From Megalodesulfovibrio gigas DSM 1382 = ATCC 19364 (GTDB taxonomy: Bacteria > Desulfobacterota > Desulfovibrionia > Desulfovibrionales > Desulfovibrionaceae): a DNA stretch of 42,081 bases. The notes beneath the pieces were generated by a model, which was given only the letters and a program-made list of their open reading frames with translations, made no database searches and was not told the origin of the DNA. Positions 3,133 to 36,271 of the stretch are shown here, piece by piece. How positions within the stretch are numbered: the first letter of the stretch is position 1; each line of letters begins with the position of its first letter. A program made the position numbers and the translations under genes. The stretch spans positions 1,135,258 through 1,177,338 of the forward strand of contig NC_022444.1 in NCBI RefSeq assembly GCF_000468495.1, read 5' to 3'.

Positions 3133-5046
3133 GTGTCCGCACCAGAAAAACCGCCCGATCTCGGGCCGCCTCTTCCGGGGCAGGACACGCTGGCCCTGTA
3201 TCGCCTCATCGCCAACCTGTTGCCCGTGGCCGTGGCCATCACGGATCCGCAAGGCCGCATCGTCGAGGCCAACGCCGCCGCGGCCGCCATCTTCGACCGA
3301 CCGCGGGAACAGCTCCTCGGCCACGAGGTAACGGCCGCGCGCTGGCCGATGTTCCAGCAGGATGGTTCCCCCCTGCCCCCGCACGCATCTCCCGCTGCCG
3401 AAGCACTGGCCCAGGGCGCGATGCGCGGTCCCGCCTTGCTGGGTATGCGCCGGACGGATGGCGCCATGGCCTGGCTGCGCACCTGGGCCGCGCCCATCCC
3501 GCTGCCGGGCTACGGCGTGGTGCTGGTGGCCCAGGACGAAACAGCCCACTGCGCCACAATGGACGCGCTCCACGCCCGCGAACAGCGATATCGCCTGGCC
3601 CTGGTGGCCGGCGGCCTGGGCAGCTGGGAATGGAACATGGCGGCACGCACGCTGCATCTGGACGTCTTCCTCAAGCAGATGCTGGGCTTTGCCGAGACGG
3701 AACTGCCCTCCACCGTGGACGCCTGGGCCGCCCGCATCCATCCGGATGATCGGGAATCCGTTCTCGCTGCAGCCCGCGCCCATGTGGAAGGCGCGCTGGA
3801 TGTCTTCGAGATGGAACACCGCATGCTCCACAAAGACGGCCGCATCCTGTGGTTCCTCACCCGGGGCGCGGTGGTGCGGGATGACGCCGGCAAACCCTTG
3901 CTGTTCCGCGGCACGCATGTGGATGTCACCCATTTTCGCCACGCCCGCGAGGCCGCCGCCAAAGGCGAACGTCTGGCCCAGTCCATCACCGACAACCTGC
4001 CCCTGGGACTGGCGGTGATCGATTCGCAGCGACACATCGTGCTGGCCAATCACAAGCTGCGGCAGTGGTATCCCCACGTGGATTTCGACTCCCTGCCCCA
4101 ATGCCGGCTGCTGCTGCCCACCCTGGCCCAGACAGCGCCCTGCCCCTGCGAGACGACCGGCTGCTGCCGGGACACCCCTCGGGAACTGCATCTGGACGTG
4201 CCCCTGCCCCACGGCATGCGCACCCTGCGCTTCTCCTTCTGCCCGCTGCCCACGGCGGCCCCTGGCGGGCAGGACGTGGTGCTGCTGGTGGAAGACGTGA
4301 CCGAAAAGCTGGCCGTGGAAGCCCGGCTGCACCGCGCCCAAAAGCTGGAAGCCATGGGCACCCTGGCTGCTGGCATCGCCCACGAGATCAACCAGCCCCT
4401 GAATGCCTTGCAGCTGTACGGCAGCGGCCTGGAAATGCTGCTGGAGAGCAACCCCAGCCTGCCCGTGGCCACCATTCGGGAACGCATCGGCCTGATGTTG
4501 CAGGAGGCCAACAAGGTGCGCGACATCATCAACCACATGCGCGCCCTCTCCCGCCTGGACACTCCGGCCGCCATCCAGCCCGTGGACATGGCAGCCTCGG
4601 TGCGCAGCGCCCTGCAACTGGTGCGTGCCCAGCTTGCCGCCCACGGCATCGAACTCGCCCTGCACCTGCCTGCGGCGCTGCCGCACGTCCTGGCCAGCCC
4701 CGTACAACTGGAGCAGGTGGTCATCAACCTGGTGGTCAACGCCATGCAGGCCCTGGATACCCTGCCCGTGGACCCGCTGCGCCCGAAACTCATTCGCGTG
4801 GAGGGCTGCGCCCGGGGTGGACAGGTCCTGCTGATCGTGGAAGACAATGGCCCTGGCCTGGGTGGACGCCAGGACCGGCTGTTCGATCCGTTCTTCACCA
4901 CCAAGGACGCCAGCCTGTGCATGGGGCTGGGATTATCCATCGTGCACAGCCTGGCCCGCTCCTGGGGCGCGGACGTGCTGGCCGAAGCCGCCGCCGGACA
5001 GGGAGCCCGTTTCTCCCTGGTACTGCGCGCGGCCGACCCGTCGTGA
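3133..5046 (+). CDS. PAS-domain sensor histidine kinase
   Basis: A 637-residue cytoplasmic kinase starting at GTG, 7 nt after the previous stop codon, with TAAGG just upstream. Three PAS-like regions are visible: about 20-130, 150-270 (a PAS/PAC pair with WEWN and IHPDDR) and 285-395. The third contains the Cys cluster CPCETTGCC (Cys337, 339, 344, 345), which could bind metal or an Fe-S cluster. HisKA follows (AHEINQPLNAL, His417), then HATPase_c with NLVVNAMQALD, EDNGPGL and FDPFFTTKD. This H-box and ATPase form are typical of kinases that pair with NtrC-family regulators. The next gene is such a regulator, so they are very probably cognate. The signal sensed is unknown. Confidence 0.9.
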   Translation: MSAPEKPPDLGPPLPGQDTLALYRLIANLLPVAVAITDPQGRIVEANAAAAAIFDRPREQLLGHEVTAARWPMFQQDGSPLPPHASPAAEALAQGAMRGPALLGMRRTDGAMAWLRTWAAPIPLPGYGVVLVAQDETAHCATMDALHAREQRYRLALVAGGLGSWEWNMAARTLHLDVFLKQMLGFAETELPSTVDAWAARIHPDDRESVLAAARAHVEGALDVFEMEHRMLHKDGRILWFLTRGAVVRDDAGKPLLFRGTHVDVTHFRHAREAAAKGERLAQSITDNLPLGLAVIDSQRHIVLANHKLRQWYPHVDFDSLPQCRLLLPTLAQTAPCPCETTGCCRDTPRELHLDVPLPHGMRTLRFSFCPLPTAAPGGQDVVLLVEDVTEKLAVEARLHRAQKLEAMGTLAAGIAHEINQPLNALQLYGSGLEMLLESNPSLPVATIRERIGLMLQEANKVRDIINHMRALSRLDTPAAIQPVDMAASVRSALQLVRAQLAAHGIELALHLPAALPHVLASPVQLEQVVINLVVNAMQALDTLPVDPLRPKLIRVEGCARGGQVLLIVEDNGPGLGGRQDRLFDPFFTTKDASLCMGLGLSIVHSLARSWGADVLAEAAAGQGARFSLVLRAADPS

Positions 5047-5053
5047 GGTGCCC

Positions 5054-6514
5054 ATGCGCGTGCTGGTAGTGGATGACAATCCCAACAGTCTCAAAAGTCT
5101 GGAAGTGGTCATCGCCGACCTGGGCCACTCCCCTGCCGCGGTTGCCGGCGGGCAGGAGGCCATGGCCGCGCTCCGGCGCGAACGCTTTCCCCTGGTGGTC
5201 ACGGACATCCGCATGCCCGGCATGGACGGCCTGGAGCTGCTGACGGCCATCAAGACGGACCCGGCCTGCAGCACCTGCGACGTGGTGCTCATCACCGGCC
5301 ACGGCGACATGGAAACCGCCATCGAAGCCCTGCGCAAGGGCGCCTATGACTATCTGAACAAACCCATCAATGCCCGCGAACTGGCCGCCGTCATCGAACG
5401 CGCCGCGGAACACCAGGCCCTGCTGCGCGAAAATCAGGCCCTCAAGGCCCCCGTGGAGCAGCATGTGGCCGCCGCCACGACCAGCCTGCGCCAGGATCTG
5501 GACCAGGCCCGCAAACTGCTGCGGAAGCATGCCGGCCTGGACGGCGTGGTGGCTGCCGCCCCGCGCATGCTGCAGCTCTTTGACGAAACCCGGCTGTTCC
5601 ATGCCAACCCGGATGTGCCCGTGCTGCTGGAAGGAGAAACCGGCGTGGGCAAGGAAGTCCTGGCCCGGGCCATCCACTTTGGCGAATCCGGGTGCGATCA
5701 GCCCTTCATTGCCATCAACTGCGCCGCCATCCCCACAGAGCTGTTCGAATCCGAACTGTTCGGCCACGATCCGGGTGCCTACACGGGCAGCGCGCCCCGC
5801 GGCGCCCTGGGCAAGATGGAACTGGCCGGCCAGGGGACCCTCTTTCTGGACGAAATCGCCGAACTGCCCCTGACGCTGCAACCCAAGCTGCTGCGGGTGC
5901 TGGAGGAACGCACCTTCTATCGCGTGGGCGGCGTCAAGCGGCGGCAGTTCAAGGCCCGTGTCGTCTGCGCAGCCAACCAGGGTCTGGAGCAACTGGTGCA
6001 TGCGGGCCGGTTCCGGCGCGACCTCTTCCACCGCCTCAAGGTGGGCCATCTGGTCATCCCCCCGTTGCGGGAACGCCCCCAGGATATCGAGGCCCTGGCC
6101 CGTCACTTTCTGCAGCGCGAAGCCGTCAAAAAGCGCAAGGCCTTCCGCTCCCTGCATCCGGACACCCTGGCCCTGCTCCAACGCTGCTCCTGGCCGGGCA
6201 ATGTGCGGGAACTGGAACACGCCATCGAACGCGCCGTGCTCCTCTGCGACGATACGGTGCTGCGGCCCGAGCACCTGTCCTTCCTGGCCTCTCCCGCCAC
6301 CGCCTGCACGGAGACAACGTCCCTGCCGCCCTCGTCCATCCTGCACCTGCCCCAGGCCCTTCCGGAAGAGGGGCTGGACCTGGAAGCCCTGACCGCGCAC
6401 ATCGTGGAACAGGCTGTGGCCAAATTCCATGGCAATAAGAGCCGCGCCGCGGCATATCTGGGCATCTCCCGCTTTGCCCTGCACCGCCGGCTGCAAAAAG
6501 AGCCCGGGCGATAA
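5054..6514 (+). CDS. Sigma54-dependent NtrC-family response regulator (REC-AAA+-Fis)
   Basis: A 486-residue enhancer-binding protein. The receiver (about 1-120) has VVDDN, D51 in VVTDIRMPGMDG, the T of LITGHG and the K of NKP. The AAA+ domain has Walker A GETGVGKE (194-201), a Walker B GTLFLDEI and the FRRDLFHRL region. The sigma54-contact loop is GAYTGS (241-246), not the usual GAFTGA. A Fis-type helix-turn-helix ends the protein (GNKSRAAAYLGISRFALHRR). ATG at 5054 follows GAGGTG, 7 nt after the upstream kinase stop. It should activate a sigma54 promoter when phosphorylated. The best candidate in this window is 124 bp downstream of its own stop codon (6638-6653), with palindromic motifs in between. 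Confidence 0.93.
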   Translation: MRVLVVDDNPNSLKSLEVVIADLGHSPAAVAGGQEAMAALRRERFPLVVTDIRMPGMDGLELLTAIKTDPACSTCDVVLITGHGDMETAIEALRKGAYDYLNKPINARELAAVIERAAEHQALLRENQALKAPVEQHVAAATTSLRQDLDQARKLLRKHAGLDGVVAAAPRMLQLFDETRLFHANPDVPVLLEGETGVGKEVLARAIHFGESGCDQPFIAINCAAIPTELFESELFGHDPGAYTGSAPRGALGKMELAGQGTLFLDEIAELPLTLQPKLLRVLEERTFYRVGGVKRRQFKARVVCAANQGLEQLVHAGRFRRDLFHRLKVGHLVIPPLRERPQDIEALARHFLQREAVKKRKAFRSLHPDTLALLQRCSWPGNVRELEHAIERAVLLCDDTVLRPEHLSFLASPATACTETTSLPPSSILHLPQALPEEGLDLEALTAHIVEQAVAKFHGNKSRAAAYLGISRFALHRRLQKEPGR

Positions 6515-6521
6515 CGCACAG

Positions 6522-6548
6522 CGCACAGGTATATGTGCGAAAACGCAC
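6522..6548 (+). promoter_or_regulatory. Candidate upstream activating sites for a sigma54 activator
   Basis: Overlapping palindromes: CGCACA (6522-6527) pairs with TGTGCG (6534-6539), and GTGCG (6535-6539) pairs across AAAA with CGCAC (6544-6548). They sit about 105-130 bp upstream of the -12 element at 6649-6653, the usual distance for an NtrC-family activator, and directly after the activator gene. There is no T-run, so they do not read as a terminator. Assignment to that activator is inference. Confidence 0.4.
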
Positions 6549-6637
6549 CCTCGCCGCCGACGCATGCCGGGGGTGCCCCAGGGTGATTATCCCTATCAAT
6601 TCGGATTGTTGCCCGAATATCACCCCGTGGCGAAATT

Positions 6638-6653
6638 TGGCACGCCAGATGCA
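6638..6653 (+). promoter_or_regulatory. Sigma54 (-24/-12) promoter
   Basis: TGGCACGCCAGATGCA matches the sigma54 consensus TGGCAC, any 5, TTGCA at all positions but one, with correct GG-to-GC spacing. Transcription would start near 6664-6666 and reach the small ORF at 6683 after a leader of about 18 nt. A second inverted repeat, ATTCGG (6599-6604) with CCGAAT (6613-6618), lies 20 bp upstream and may be a regulator site. This is the only strong sigma54 box I noticed in the window. Confidence 0.72.
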
Positions 6654-6682
6654 TAAAGAGCCTCAAGTAAGGCTGCGTTGCC

Positions 6683-7027
6683 ATGCACGTACTCGTCATT
6701 CACAGATGCGCCACCACATTGCAGCAGGTTTGCCAGGCACTGCAGGCGGCCGGGCTCACCTGCGAATGCCACAGCTCCCCAGTGGCGGCAGCGTACACGT
6801 TCGCCTTCAGCGGTGTCCCGTTTGAGGCGGTGCTGGTCGATGGCGAGATGGGGAAAGAATGCAGCAGTGGCGTGCTCCAGGTCATCCGCGCCCTGCAACC
6901 GGACATCCACATCCAGGTTGCGGAAACGGCCCTGGAGGCCTGCCGGGTCGCAGGCGATTTGCAGCGCACGGCAAAGGAGCTGCATTCCCTTGCCACAGCG
7001 AAACTTGCTGGCGGCCGACTGAGTTGA
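6683..7027 (+). CDS. Small degenerate receiver-like protein
   Basis: A 114-residue soluble protein that I recognise only by fold-like pattern. It starts MHVLVIHRC where a receiver has a beta strand then an acidic pair, and has FEAVLVDGEMGKE around residues 47-57 where the phospho-acceptor loop (D53) would be. The acidic pair is replaced by His-Arg, and no conserved Thr or Lys follows, so ordinary Mg-dependent phosphorylation is unlikely. TAAGG at 6668-6672 is a 10-nt-spaced ribosome site for the ATG at 6683. It is the first gene after the sigma54 promoter and is followed by the C-loop hairpins. Possible roles are partner or antagonist of the upstream kinases, or a short coding leader of the RNA. 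Function is unknown. Confidence 0.7.
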   Translation: MHVLVIHRCATTLQQVCQALQAAGLTCECHSSPVAAAYTFAFSGVPFEAVLVDGEMGKECSSGVLQVIRALQPDIHIQVAETALEACRVAGDLQRTAKELHSLATAKLAGGRLS

Positions 7028-7054: not shown

Positions 7055-7300
7055 TTGCCCGGCCCATGCCGGCAACCATATCGGCCGTCCTTCCCCCCCC
7101 TGGACGGCTGACCTGCCGACCGCTCTCTCATAGGACCCCCCCTCCTGCAGCGGTCGGTTCGACGCAACGGGAGCTCGCGGCGGCTGCGCATCCTGCGCGG
7201 CTGCCCGCTCCCTGCCCATAGCGGGGACCATCCCCCCCGGTCCCCCCCCCAAGCGCCTTGCCTGCCAGGTACCCCCCCCACCGGGCAGGCAAGGCCTTTT
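7055..7300 (+). ncRNA. Candidate structured RNA: six tandem hairpins with C-run loops
   Basis: Every part of this gap folds locally. H0 is 7055-7075 (loop CCCATG). H1 is 7084-7108, GCCGTCC/GGACGGC closing TTCCCCCCCCT. H2 is 7116-7157, a 9-bp outer stem with an inner AGGA/TCCT closing exactly C7. H3 is 7169-7212, outer GGGAGC/GCTCCC with an inner 12-bp stem and loop TCC. H4 is 7223-7245, GGGGACC/GGTCCCC around AT plus C7. H5 is 7255-7295, a 12-bp stem with an inner GGT/ACC around A plus C8, followed by CTTTT. So four hairpins present C7-C8 and the element ends in its own terminator. It could be the 3' part of the sigma54 transcript or an independent sRNA. I know no named family with this layout; the ncRNA call is inference from structure. 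Confidence 0.55.
7255..7300 (+). terminator. Intrinsic terminator ending the receiver-like/C-loop transcript
   Basis: GCCTTGCCTGCC (7255-7266) pairs perfectly with GGCAGGCAAGGC (7284-7295), a 12-bp GC-rich stem followed by CTTTT at 7296-7300. The 17-nt loop includes C8. It is oriented for the + strand. Read from the minus strand the stem is followed by a G-run, not a T-run, so it does not serve the convergent kinase gene as a classical terminator. Confidence 0.75.
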
Positions 7301-7340: not shown

Positions 7341-9545
7341 TCACCCCTCGAAGCGTGCATACCTCGGCAGCACGAAGGTGAAGGAGGCGCCTTGTCCCGG
7401 GGAGGACTCCGCCCACATCCGGCCGCCGTAATGCTCGACAATCTGGCGGGATATGGCCAGACCAAGGCCGGTGCCGCTGGCTTTGTCCGTGTCCTGGTTT
7501 TTGGCGACCTGATAGAAGCGATCAAAAATCCGCTCCAGATCCTCGCCAGGGATGCCGATGCCACTGTCTTGCACCGTGACCGTGACCCCTTGCCCGGACG
7601 CGTCCGGACCGACGGTGACGCGGATGAAACCTTCTGCGGAGAATTTCAGGGCGTTGGACAGCAGATTGATGAACACCTGGCGGATACGATCGCAATCGGC
7701 CATCACGAGGGGGGCCTCAGGGTGCATGGCAACTTCCACGCGGAGCTGAGGCTTTTCGGAGAACTCGCGCTGCAGCACCCGCACGGCGGCCCTGGCTTCC
7801 TCGGCAAGGTTGACGGGCCGGTCATGCCAGGGCTGTCTGCCCGATTCGATCCGGTTGAGATCCAGCAGATCGTTGATGAGGCGTGAGAGCCTGCCCCCCT
7901 CGCTTTCGATCACCTGCAGATTGTCCAGAATCTGGTCTCCACGCACTGTCAGCGGGGCGTCATCCTGGACCAGGGGTTTGAAATGCTTGCGGAAAGCCTT
8001 GGACGTGACCTTGGCGTAGCCGAGCACCGACGTCAACGGCGTGCGCAGTTCATGGGACACCAGGGAAATGAACGAGCTCTTCAGTTCATCAAGCTGCAGG
8101 AGCTTGAGGTTGGCCTCCCGTAATTCCCTGGTCCGCTCCGCCACGCGCAGTTCGAGATCTTCCTTGGCCTCAAGCAACGCGTGCTCCATGCGCCGGTGCT
8201 CGGTGATGTCGATGCCGATGCCGGTGAAGTAGGTCGCGCCGTCGATGTCCAGCCGCACGGCGGTCAGGAAAAAGGGGACACGCCGGCCGTCTTTGGTGCG
8301 GATTTCGGCTTCTTCATTGCCGATGCCCTGCGCGAAGACACGGCGGACAGCGGCGGCGATTTTTTCCTGCATGGCAAGGTCGCCCTCGTACCAGTCCATG
8401 AGATGCATGGAGGCCAGTTCCTGGCCGGTGTAGCCCGTCAAGGTTTCATGCATCCGGTTCCAGCGCACCAGCCGTTGGTGATCATCATACAGAAAGAGCA
8501 GGCCGGGGACGCTGTCCAGCACGGCGTTGGTGAAAACGCGCTCACGGTGCAGCTGGGCCTGCATGCGTTTGCGGTGCGCCACCTCCTGGCGCAACCGGCG
8601 GTTGTGCCACAGCGTGGTCCCCATCACCGCCAGGACGGGCAGGCAGATCACCAGCAGCAAGGTGAAGACGTCCAGGGGCGTGATGCCATGCTCATAGCGG
8701 ACAGAAAGCCATTTGCCCCGCAGCTGGGCGTGATGCCGCCAGGTGAGGGCGTCCAGGGCCTTGTTCAAAATGCCGACAAGCTCCGGCCAGTCCTGGCGAA
8801 CGGCGAAATGCAGGTCGTAGTTGCCGTATGAGGTCGGGGCAGCGACCTTGAGATTGGCCAGGCCGTACTTGTCGATGAGGTAGCTGGCGGCCGCAAGATT
8901 TTCGATGGCGGCATCGGCGGCGCCTTCGGCCACGGCTTCGAGGGCCTCCTGAGGCGAGCCTACGGGCACGAGGTTCACGTCGATATTGTCGCGCTTCAGC
9001 CAGGTACCGACGATGTTATCTGGAATGAGCGCCACGTTCATGCCCCGCAGGTCATCCAGCCCGCCAATGAACCTGGCGTCCCTCCGGCTGATGATGACTA
9101 TGGGAAAAGACAGATACGCCTTCGAGAAAACAAGAAAGGACTCGCGCTCCTGGGATCGGGCGATGCAGGGAATGAGGTCAAGGGATTGTTCCTTGATCCG
9201 CTCCAGGGTCTCAGGCCAGGGAGCGACGGGCTCTTGTTGCAGCGTCAGGCCGAGGGACTTCGCAATCAGATGCAGGTAGTCCAGGGCCATGCCCTGGGCG
9301 CTGCCGGTCTCGTCATAAAAATGAAAGGGCGGGAAGGCCCTGGGGCCGCCGATGCGCAGGATGGGATGCGCCTGGAGCCAGGCGGTTTCCTCGGCAGTAA
9401 GGGGCACGGCGGGAGGCGCAAGGTCGTAAGGGCCGGCCTCGCGGCCGCCTCCGGCCGGGCACGGCGTTGCCGTCAGCAGCAGGGCCGCCAGCAACAGACA
9501 GATCGGGACATGTCGCACGAAGAAACGTGCCGCGCGTATCGCCAT
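7341..9545 (-). CDS. Membrane histidine kinase with periplasmic solute-binding (SBP_bac_3) sensor and PAS domain
   Basis: A 734-residue protein. Residues 1-34 are a signal sequence or first membrane segment. About 50-270 is a family-3 solute-binding domain, as in BvgS/EvgS-type sensors. A membrane segment lies at about 292-312, a PAS/PAC at about 340-450, then a short coiled coil and HisKA with SFISLVSHELRTPLTSVLGY. HATPase_c follows, with NLLSNALKF, DSGIGIP and GTGLGLAISR. It probably senses a small periplasmic ligand, possibly an amino acid. The ATG at 9545 starts a proper signal sequence; longer in-frame versions would run into the promoter at 9607-9635. Its leader carries a G8 tract at the ribosome-site position. 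No cognate regulator is adjacent on the same strand. Confidence 0.9.
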   Translation of the reverse strand: MAIRAARFFVRHVPICLLLAALLLTATPCPAGGGREAGPYDLAPPAVPLTAEETAWLQAHPILRIGGPRAFPPFHFYDETGSAQGMALDYLHLIAKSLGLTLQQEPVAPWPETLERIKEQSLDLIPCIARSQERESFLVFSKAYLSFPIVIISRRDARFIGGLDDLRGMNVALIPDNIVGTWLKRDNIDVNLVPVGSPQEALEAVAEGAADAAIENLAAASYLIDKYGLANLKVAAPTSYGNYDLHFAVRQDWPELVGILNKALDALTWRHHAQLRGKWLSVRYEHGITPLDVFTLLLVICLPVLAVMGTTLWHNRRLRQEVAHRKRMQAQLHRERVFTNAVLDSVPGLLFLYDDHQRLVRWNRMHETLTGYTGQELASMHLMDWYEGDLAMQEKIAAAVRRVFAQGIGNEEAEIRTKDGRRVPFFLTAVRLDIDGATYFTGIGIDITEHRRMEHALLEAKEDLELRVAERTRELREANLKLLQLDELKSSFISLVSHELRTPLTSVLGYAKVTSKAFRKHFKPLVQDDAPLTVRGDQILDNLQVIESEGGRLSRLINDLLDLNRIESGRQPWHDRPVNLAEEARAAVRVLQREFSEKPQLRVEVAMHPEAPLVMADCDRIRQVFINLLSNALKFSAEGFIRVTVGPDASGQGVTVTVQDSGIGIPGEDLERIFDRFYQVAKNQDTDKASGTGLGLAISRQIVEHYGGRMWAESSPGQGASFTFVLPRYARFEG

Positions 9546-9554
9546 GGACTGGAG

Positions 9555-9562
9555 CCCCCCCC
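9555..9562 (-). promoter_or_regulatory. G8 tract in the ribosome-binding position
   Basis: In the mRNA (minus strand) eight consecutive G lie 9 nt upstream of the ATG at 9545, where the Shine-Dalgarno should be; no other purine-rich site is present. The tract is exactly complementary to the C8 loops at 7093-7100 and 7272-7279. A homopolymer of this length could also vary by slippage. Regulation through it is inference. Confidence 0.45.
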
Positions 9563-36264: not shown

Positions 36265-36271
36265 GGGGGGG
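36265..36271 (+). promoter_or_regulatory. G7 ribosome-binding site of the SDR-DUF2867 gene
   Basis: AAGAAGGGGGGGAT directly precedes ATG 36274, giving a G7 tract as the only Shine-Dalgarno. It is the second G-tract leader in the window besides 9555-9562, and matches the C7 loops of the RNA at 7055-7300. Any regulation is inference. Confidence 0.5.

Follow-up and report, generated by a model that had tools for sequence, protein, structure and literature searches.

The window analyzed here, a stretch of 42,081 nucleotides from Megalodesulfovibrio gigas DSM 1382 (D. gigas hereafter), contains an array of hairpins with C-runs that lies between a small receiver-like gene on the + strand (6683-7027) and, convergent to it on the - strand, a gene for a sensor kinase (7341-9545). 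Upstream of the array, also on the + strand, a gene for a PAS histidine kinase (3133-5046; Pfam PAS, HisKA and HATPase_c) is followed by that of an NtrC-type response regulator (5048-6514), whose receiver, sigma54 activation and Fis helix-turn-helix domains match Pfam Response_reg, Sigma54_activat and HTH_8. These two proteins would make up the two-component system that controls the array. The receiver-like gene encodes a protein of 114 aa without a Pfam match, and is predicted to belong to the same transcription unit as the array.

The order of kinase, regulator and small gene is retained in the sister genome G001, the other genome of genus g1 examined, where the 114-aa protein is 58% identical. 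Since the gene beyond the array differs in G001, the array appears to travel with the regulator side. The gene past the array in G001 (locus L045, about 5345-6300), which replaces the sensor kinase gene, is by eye ADP-ribosylglycohydrolase-like. Used as a search anchor, the small open reading frame gave, besides G001, two marginal matches (E about 9e-4), both inside long frames; among named records, a relative of the protein is found in JAIWOE010000023.1, from the Desulfovibrio sp. W18 MAG. A receiver-like protein of this kind precedes the array in two genera, and the copies in genus g11 (L117 and L118), located between regulator and array, are 26-27% identical, within an overall range of 26-30%.

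Two palindromes read in the sequence directly behind the regulator gene, CGCACA-N6-TGTGCG and GTGCG-AAAA-CGCAC (6522-6548), are probable enhancer sites. Farther downstream, a sigma54-type promoter of the form TTTGGCACG-N5-TGC (GG-N10-GC) occupies 6636-6652 on the + strand, with a predicted transcription start near 6664. Both the promoter and the upstream TGCG/CGCA half-sites are found between the regulator and the small gene in D. gigas as well as in G001, where the GG and GC elements are shared and the bases of the gap differ. This arrangement agrees with a sigma54 promoter and with enhancer sites at which the adjacent regulator, the probable activator of the array RNA, would bind. As far as the sequence can tell, the array is thus the end of a sigma54-type transcription unit coupled to the neighboring two-component system, and not an isolated intergenic RNA.

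Fold and C-runs of the array

The first-pass annotation had described six consecutive hairpins after the small receiver-like gene, and folding confirms them at 7055-7298 of the + strand, four with C7-C8 loops. The predicted minimum free energy of this strand is -139.6, against a mean of -106.8 for shuffled sequences (z -6.43), and none of 200 dinucleotide shuffles folded as low; for the - strand, the z value is -0.64 and 25 of 100 shuffles were as low.

The first and fourth hairpins, H1 (7055-7075) and H4 (about 7164-7213), contain no C-run; H4 has diverged in sequence in G001 with its pairing retained. H2 (7081-7111) presents the loop UU-C8-U (C8 at 7093-7100), and all of the four pairs (out of ten) that are changed in G001 can still form. 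In H3 (7115-7158), which was compared with G001 as well, a C7 loop (7136-7142) is closed by an inner stem of 5 bp, and H5 (7223-7245), GGGGACC-AUCCCCCCC-GGUCCCC, holds its C7 (7232-7238) in the loop AU-C7. An inner stem that closes on the C-run, previously noted for H2 and H5, is therefore borne out for H5 and belongs to H3 instead of H2. H6 (hairpin 7251-7298; 7251-7300 with its T-run) combines the last C-loop (C8 at 7272-7279) with a TTTT at 7297-7300 and is terminator-like, as first described; its counterpart in G001 is followed by a longer T-run. The four C-runs listed earlier are exact in their coordinates and all fall in predicted loops, and a fifth, C9 at 7242-7250, had been overlooked; four of its nine bases lie within the stem of H5 and the rest follow that hairpin.

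C-runs are much more concentrated at this locus than in the chromosome. A 400-kb sample contains 186 runs of C6 or longer per 800 kb of strand, about 0.23 per kb, compared with five in 187 nt of the array. A local-fold script places 33 of those 186 in hairpin loops that have five or more unpaired C's and a stem of six pairs or longer; applied to the array, it does so for three of the five runs and puts a fourth on a 5-pair stem. A whole-genome pattern of two C6 runs 12-42 nt apart gave 45 overlapping matches. Further closely spaced C6 repeats are found on contig C2 of the D. gigas assembly at 3351322-3351363 and 3457022-3457054. Altogether, the region probably encodes a small regulatory RNA made of hairpins.

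Relatives beside orthologous regulators

In a sequence search, the array had a strong match only to G001 among the matches listed; that region is 84% identical and retains the hairpins and all four C-runs. Other matches listed for the family were 18-69 nt long, and those inspected were palindromes or unrelated sequence. Genus g25 (L009-L011, L013, L014 and L022) contains G7/C7 palindromes of the GGGGGGGATCATCCCCCCC type, and several genomes match the stretch twice. A covariance search of related genomes, as had been suggested, was performed with an H2-H3 model on 348 genomes of the order; it gave two strong matches, D. gigas itself (G000) and G001, and weaker ones (E <= 1) in 18 other genomes, the highest of which scored 28.8 bits and two of which had E values of 0.007-0.008. 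The strong matches of both searches stay within the genus, and primary sequence thus hardly carries the family. A pattern of three C7 runs, applied to 288 genomes, was uninformative: many of the matches listed fell at contig ends or in long homopolymers, and owing to the gap between H3 and H5 it misses the D. gigas array itself.

Relatives were located by synteny instead, with the kinase and the regulator each serving as an anchor in 285 genomes of the family. Kinase relatives were found in 40 of these (E <= 1e-60), and a regulator at least 50% identical in 43 (E <= 1e-120). The tally comprises these 43 genomes and G065, found via its kinase, in which the regulator is in two pieces (63.6 and 62.1% identical). 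A sigma54-type promoter and a hairpin RNA with C- or CCUCC-loops lie beside the regulator in 33 of the 44. Three to five pure runs of C6-C10 on the regulator's strand characterize 22 genomes (two in g1, two in g11, one in g15, ten in g21 and seven in g38); two g9 genomes have the RNA in two tandem copies with C4-C6 loops, and every copy has a sigma54-type promoter to itself; six g19 genomes have a same-strand RNA with a CCUCC-type loop, and in three more of that genus (G094, G055 and G106) a CCUCC-type RNA is convergent to the regulator. The RNA was not found beside the regulator in nine (G140 and G186 of g19; G017 of g17; G098, G134, G062 and G034 of g34; G045 and G003 of g3), and two loci (G144 and G149) are cut by contig ends. 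The stems of the tandem copies in g9 (L248, 3111-3614; L252) are related, and both copies follow one regulator. At the g19 loci L244, L258 and L260, the RNA gene lies on the strand opposite to the regulator and has its own sigma54-type promoter.

An exact GG-N10-GC promoter is present in 20 of the 22 loci with C6-C10 arrays, and both g11 loci have the near-consensus GG-N10-GT. In five of the seven RNA-bearing genera (g15, g21, g38, g9 and g19), the distance from the promoter to the first loop leaves no room for a gene. A perfect TGCG-N4-CGCA occurs within 250 nt behind the regulator in at least 12 of 30 same-strand RNA loci, and TGCG-N3-CGCA in at least one of 13 other ortholog loci, some stop positions in this survey having been misplaced by the script. 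As controls we used the regions downstream of ten paralogs, out of 13 listed regulator matches below 50% identity; none of the ten has a promoter and array, and the same palindrome survey gave none of them a perfect TGCG-N4-CGCA within 250 nt. At 16 relatives' loci, no match reached an Rfam gathering score except two FMN riboswitches. In genus g38, such a riboswitch lies shortly downstream of the array (L121, 2680-2840; L130, 2867-3025). Judging from these comparisons, the layout is retained in six further genera while the stem sequences change, and computation points to a conserved RNA family that goes together with a single two-component system and with a promoter of the sigma54 type.

Pairing is maintained through these changes. 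In the consensus fold of D. gigas and G001, all 66 pairs hold and four have changed on both sides, although two sequences are slim evidence and this fold was fitted to them. The expectation that stems would covary around constant C-run loops in relatives was realized in genus g21, where 91.3% of cells pair over ten sequences, 19 of 46 pairs have two-sided changes and the loops remain C6-C10. The two-sided cells number 41, compared with 15.6 +/- 2.9 in shuffles, none of which reached that number in 500, and with 4-11 when the structure was slid along; the structure was derived from the same ten-sequence alignment that was used for the test, and in helices 4 and 5 just 74-78% of cells pair. Genus g38 is too alike for such a test (1 of 64 pairs). 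At 21 array loci, with 60 shuffles each, z ranges from -2.3 to -10.9 on the + strand and from +0.3 to -6.0 on the - strand; in g11 and g15 the - strand also folds well (z -3.9 to -6.0), so that strand preference is clear only in the other genera. At the same loci, the mean unpaired probability is 0.74-1.00 for C-run bases and 0.22-0.44 for other C's.

In genus g19, the loop itself has changed. One hairpin loop reads UCCUCCUCCC in G193, G172, G077 and G130 and CUCCUCCUCU in G118, and a single RNA of G165 contains CCUCCCCC, CCUCCUC and CCUCCUU together with C6 stretches. CCUCC is the core of the anti-Shine-Dalgarno sequence. This change from C-runs to CCUCC behind orthologous regulators connects the two loop types, and the shift to UCCUCCUCCC-type loops is the best evidence that the loops may act as seeds for translation-start regions.

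Candidate targets and possible actions

G-runs were counted over 1.24 Mb of D. gigas sequence, in which 960 genes and their starts had been called by codon usage and without Shine-Dalgarno signals. Runs of G6 or longer that end 0-9 nt before predicted starts number 17, whereas the other 10-nt bins average 2.1 (Poisson P 1.6e-10), and runs of G7 or longer number 6 compared with 0.5; for C6 or longer, the values are 5 and 3.9. The mean of the other bins omits the bin from -10 to -1. Runs of G5 or longer peak likewise and the AGGAG peak is much larger, so that these G-runs may simply be variants of the Shine-Dalgarno sequence; pure C-runs are an imperfect match to the usual GGAGG. Raw ATG profiles over 442 kb gave no signal of G-runs at ribosome-binding distance, with an excess solely at 0-3 nt, and a count of the G-run pattern against its reverse, which is confounded by trinucleotide bias, gave none at that distance either. 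The answer thus depends on how starts are called. Before ATG in six AT-rich genomes, G8 is not in excess (53 versus 61 for the reversed pattern).

In 19 genes the start follows a run of G6 or longer by 0-14 nt; 17 of them were compared with Pfam, and the matches include three hybrid kinases, MCP, CheW, STAS and HDOD, among others. Histidine kinases make up three of the 19, compared with 30 of the 960 (P 0.019), a weak and post hoc difference; in a random sample, HATPase_c and HisKA were matched in two of 110 genes. A wider count of signaling genes was discarded as circular, the query proteins having been drawn from the matches. A candidate target site closer at hand is a G8 on the - strand (9555-9562), nine nt before ATG 9545 (a start chosen by eye) of the convergent sensor kinase gene, with which the loops might pair; the start caller passed over that ATG, which is why this gene is missing from the 19. 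Another possible G-run start is that of a NAD-binding protein of 520 aa, with a G7 run (36265-36271) two nt ahead of its ATG.

The reading that we favor, and regard as reasonably likely, is that of an sRNA driven by the two-component system and sigma54, with loops that would pair with G-rich translation starts. The NtrC-type regulator would bind the palindromes behind its own gene and turn on the sigma54 promoter, and the D. gigas transcript would include the small receiver-like gene and terminate in the hairpin array, which might act in place or be released as an sRNA derived from the 3'-UTR. The RNA of most relatives would begin directly at the promoter. Rigid stems would present several equivalent C-run loops as seeds, and by pairing with a G-run or a G-rich Shine-Dalgarno region these would block the translation of many mRNAs; the array RNA thus probably silences messages with a G-rich ribosome-binding site. 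The initial proposal of a multi-site sRNA that pairs with G-tract leaders has therefore survived in part: the RNA is structured on the + strand, and G-run enrichment and CCUCC loops make G-rich starts likely partners, but it is the end of a sigma54-type unit rather than a free-standing intergenic RNA. We put forward, more tentatively and at less than an even chance, a riboregulator of the Desulfovibrionaceae, in which an RNA made by one two-component system through sigma54 would silence, by means of several interchangeable seed loops, a regulon marked by G-run ribosome-binding sites that includes other sensor kinases, the seed evolving between C-runs and CCUCC as the stems drift freely.

Other readings draw on the same features. 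The variable C-tract length among relatives, the G7-G9 runs of the - strand and the repeated G7/C7 palindromes of genus g25 could suggest an element that acts as DNA, through tracts prone to slippage, repeat palindromes or a G-quadruplex formed by the opposite strand. This we hold to be very improbable, as folding in D. gigas and G001 is strand-specific, some pairs go from G-C to G-U between the two, as suits a + strand RNA, and the D. gigas genome contains no second copy of the array region at E <= 0.001. It is also improbable, if somewhat less so, that the array merely stabilizes the 3'-UTR of the receiver-like gene and reinforces its terminator, its C-runs having no partner. The array does follow that gene in g1 and g11, and the end hairpin is terminator-like in D. 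gigas and G001, but g15, g21, g38, g9 and g19 have the promoter directly before the RNA and yet keep C- or CCUCC-loops.

Many equivalent loops would also suit a sponge that titrates a C-binding protein (Rho or other) or G-rich sRNAs, as CrcZ does with Hfq/Crc. Rho is poorly served by short C loops held between strong stems, which counts against such a role, and the change of the g19 loop to UCCUCCUCCC is expected for Shine-Dalgarno pairing and not for a poly-C binder. The layout of kinase, regulator and sigma54 RNA, on the other hand, matches cbrA-cbrB-crcZ, and CrcZ binds Crc/Hfq directly and so interferes with it (PMC8871633); on balance, we consider a sponge unlikely. Compatible with the sRNA reading favored above, and in our judgment slightly more probable than its opposite, is the view that the array RNA is the D. 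gigas counterpart of the ncRNA behind DVU0679 (Dv_sRNA2) or DVU0653 of D. vulgaris. Both genes are listed with a downstream ncRNA (PMC4641369), but the word "hairpin" does not occur in the main text of that paper, and no structure is described in the available portions of it or of PMC3333781.

Comparison with known systems

No Rfam match in the window reaches its gathering score. At the locus itself, with E up to 10, the search gave just sX13 (RF02232; 12.0 bits, compared with a gathering threshold of 50; E 8, one hairpin) and a snoRNA. The first-pass annotation knew of no named family with this layout. That statement is not supported in this form: sX13, 6C/B11 and alpha-r14 (NfeR1) are published C-rich multi-loop sRNAs, and D. 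vulgaris has ncRNAs behind sigma54 regulators. The 6C RNA, which we take to be Rfam accession RF01066, is an actinobacterial family. Like 6C, four hairpins of the array hold at least six C's in the loop; unlike 6C, which has two stem-loops and belongs to another phylum, the array has no Rfam 6C match. In mycobacteria, 6C/B11 is 93 nt long, has six conserved cytosines in its two stem-loops and interacts with the panD and dnaB mRNAs (PMC8628891).

The sX13 RNA of Xanthomonas has three stable stems with apical C-rich loops, for which Hfq is dispensable, and its repression requires the C-motifs of the loops and G-motifs near the translation starts of the mRNAs (PMC3771888). Its loops are short C motifs such as UCCCCCU, in contrast to the C7-C8 loops of the array, and the available text describes no sigma54 or two-component linkage of the kind predicted here (PMC3771888). 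The several C-rich apical loops are the feature that the D. gigas array shares with it. HPnc5490 of Helicobacter, also named RepG, pairs with a G-repeat. This sRNA, a repressor of TlpB, carries a UCCCCCU loop; it differs from the array in being described with one such loop and in another phylum (PMC3771888).

In alpha-r14 RNAs of rhizobia, among them NfeR1, each of three hairpins contains the anti-Shine-Dalgarno motif CCUCCUCCC on highly different stems; these RNAs act at the translation initiation region, and NfeR1 silences ntrB (PMC10746234). The activator of NfeR1 is LsrB and its repressor NtrC, and no sigma54 link is described in the available text (PMC10746234). Genus g19 comes near to this design with a loop, UCCUCCUCCC, that almost equals CCUCCUCCC, although in one loop; the D. 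gigas loops, unlike those of alpha-r14, are pure C7-C8, without CCUCCUCCC in three loops.

To our knowledge, CrcZ has no C-run loops; CrcZ-type sRNAs have repeated A-rich Hfq/Crc binding sites, and the array loops are by inspection C-runs. In Pseudomonadaceae, the genes for CrcZ/CrcY lie right behind a kinase/regulator pair, and their sigmaN promoter is activated by that regulator (PMC8871633). The array unit resembles this in sequence and position, with its predicted sigma54 promoter directly behind an NtrC-type two-component regulator, but CrcZ acts on the Crc/Hfq complex (PMC8871633), unlike the action favored for the array RNA. Dv_sRNA2 lies downstream of DVU0679, is a target of this regulator and is expressed on a tiling array, and is reported without a function (PMC3333781). 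Like the array RNA, it and the DVU0653 ncRNA lie directly behind a sigma54 response regulator (PMC4641369, PMC3333781). No description of C-rich hairpin RNAs in this family was found in the open-licence literature (e.g., the available text of PMC11124144), and one may be in print elsewhere.

For a kind of RNA whose function the D. vulgaris work left unknown, the present analysis offers a predicted structure, promoter and controlling system along with a mode of action that can be tested. It also leads one to expect, in sulfate reducers, a regulon marked by G-runs. By analogy, the array RNA would work like sX13, 6C and NfeR1; it is wired like CrcZ, matches neither 6C nor sX13 in Rfam and lacks the triple loop motif of alpha-r14. 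The array RNA unites two known designs, the two-component/sigma54 RNA genes exemplified by CrcZ and the C-loop antisense RNAs exemplified by sX13, 6C and NfeR1.
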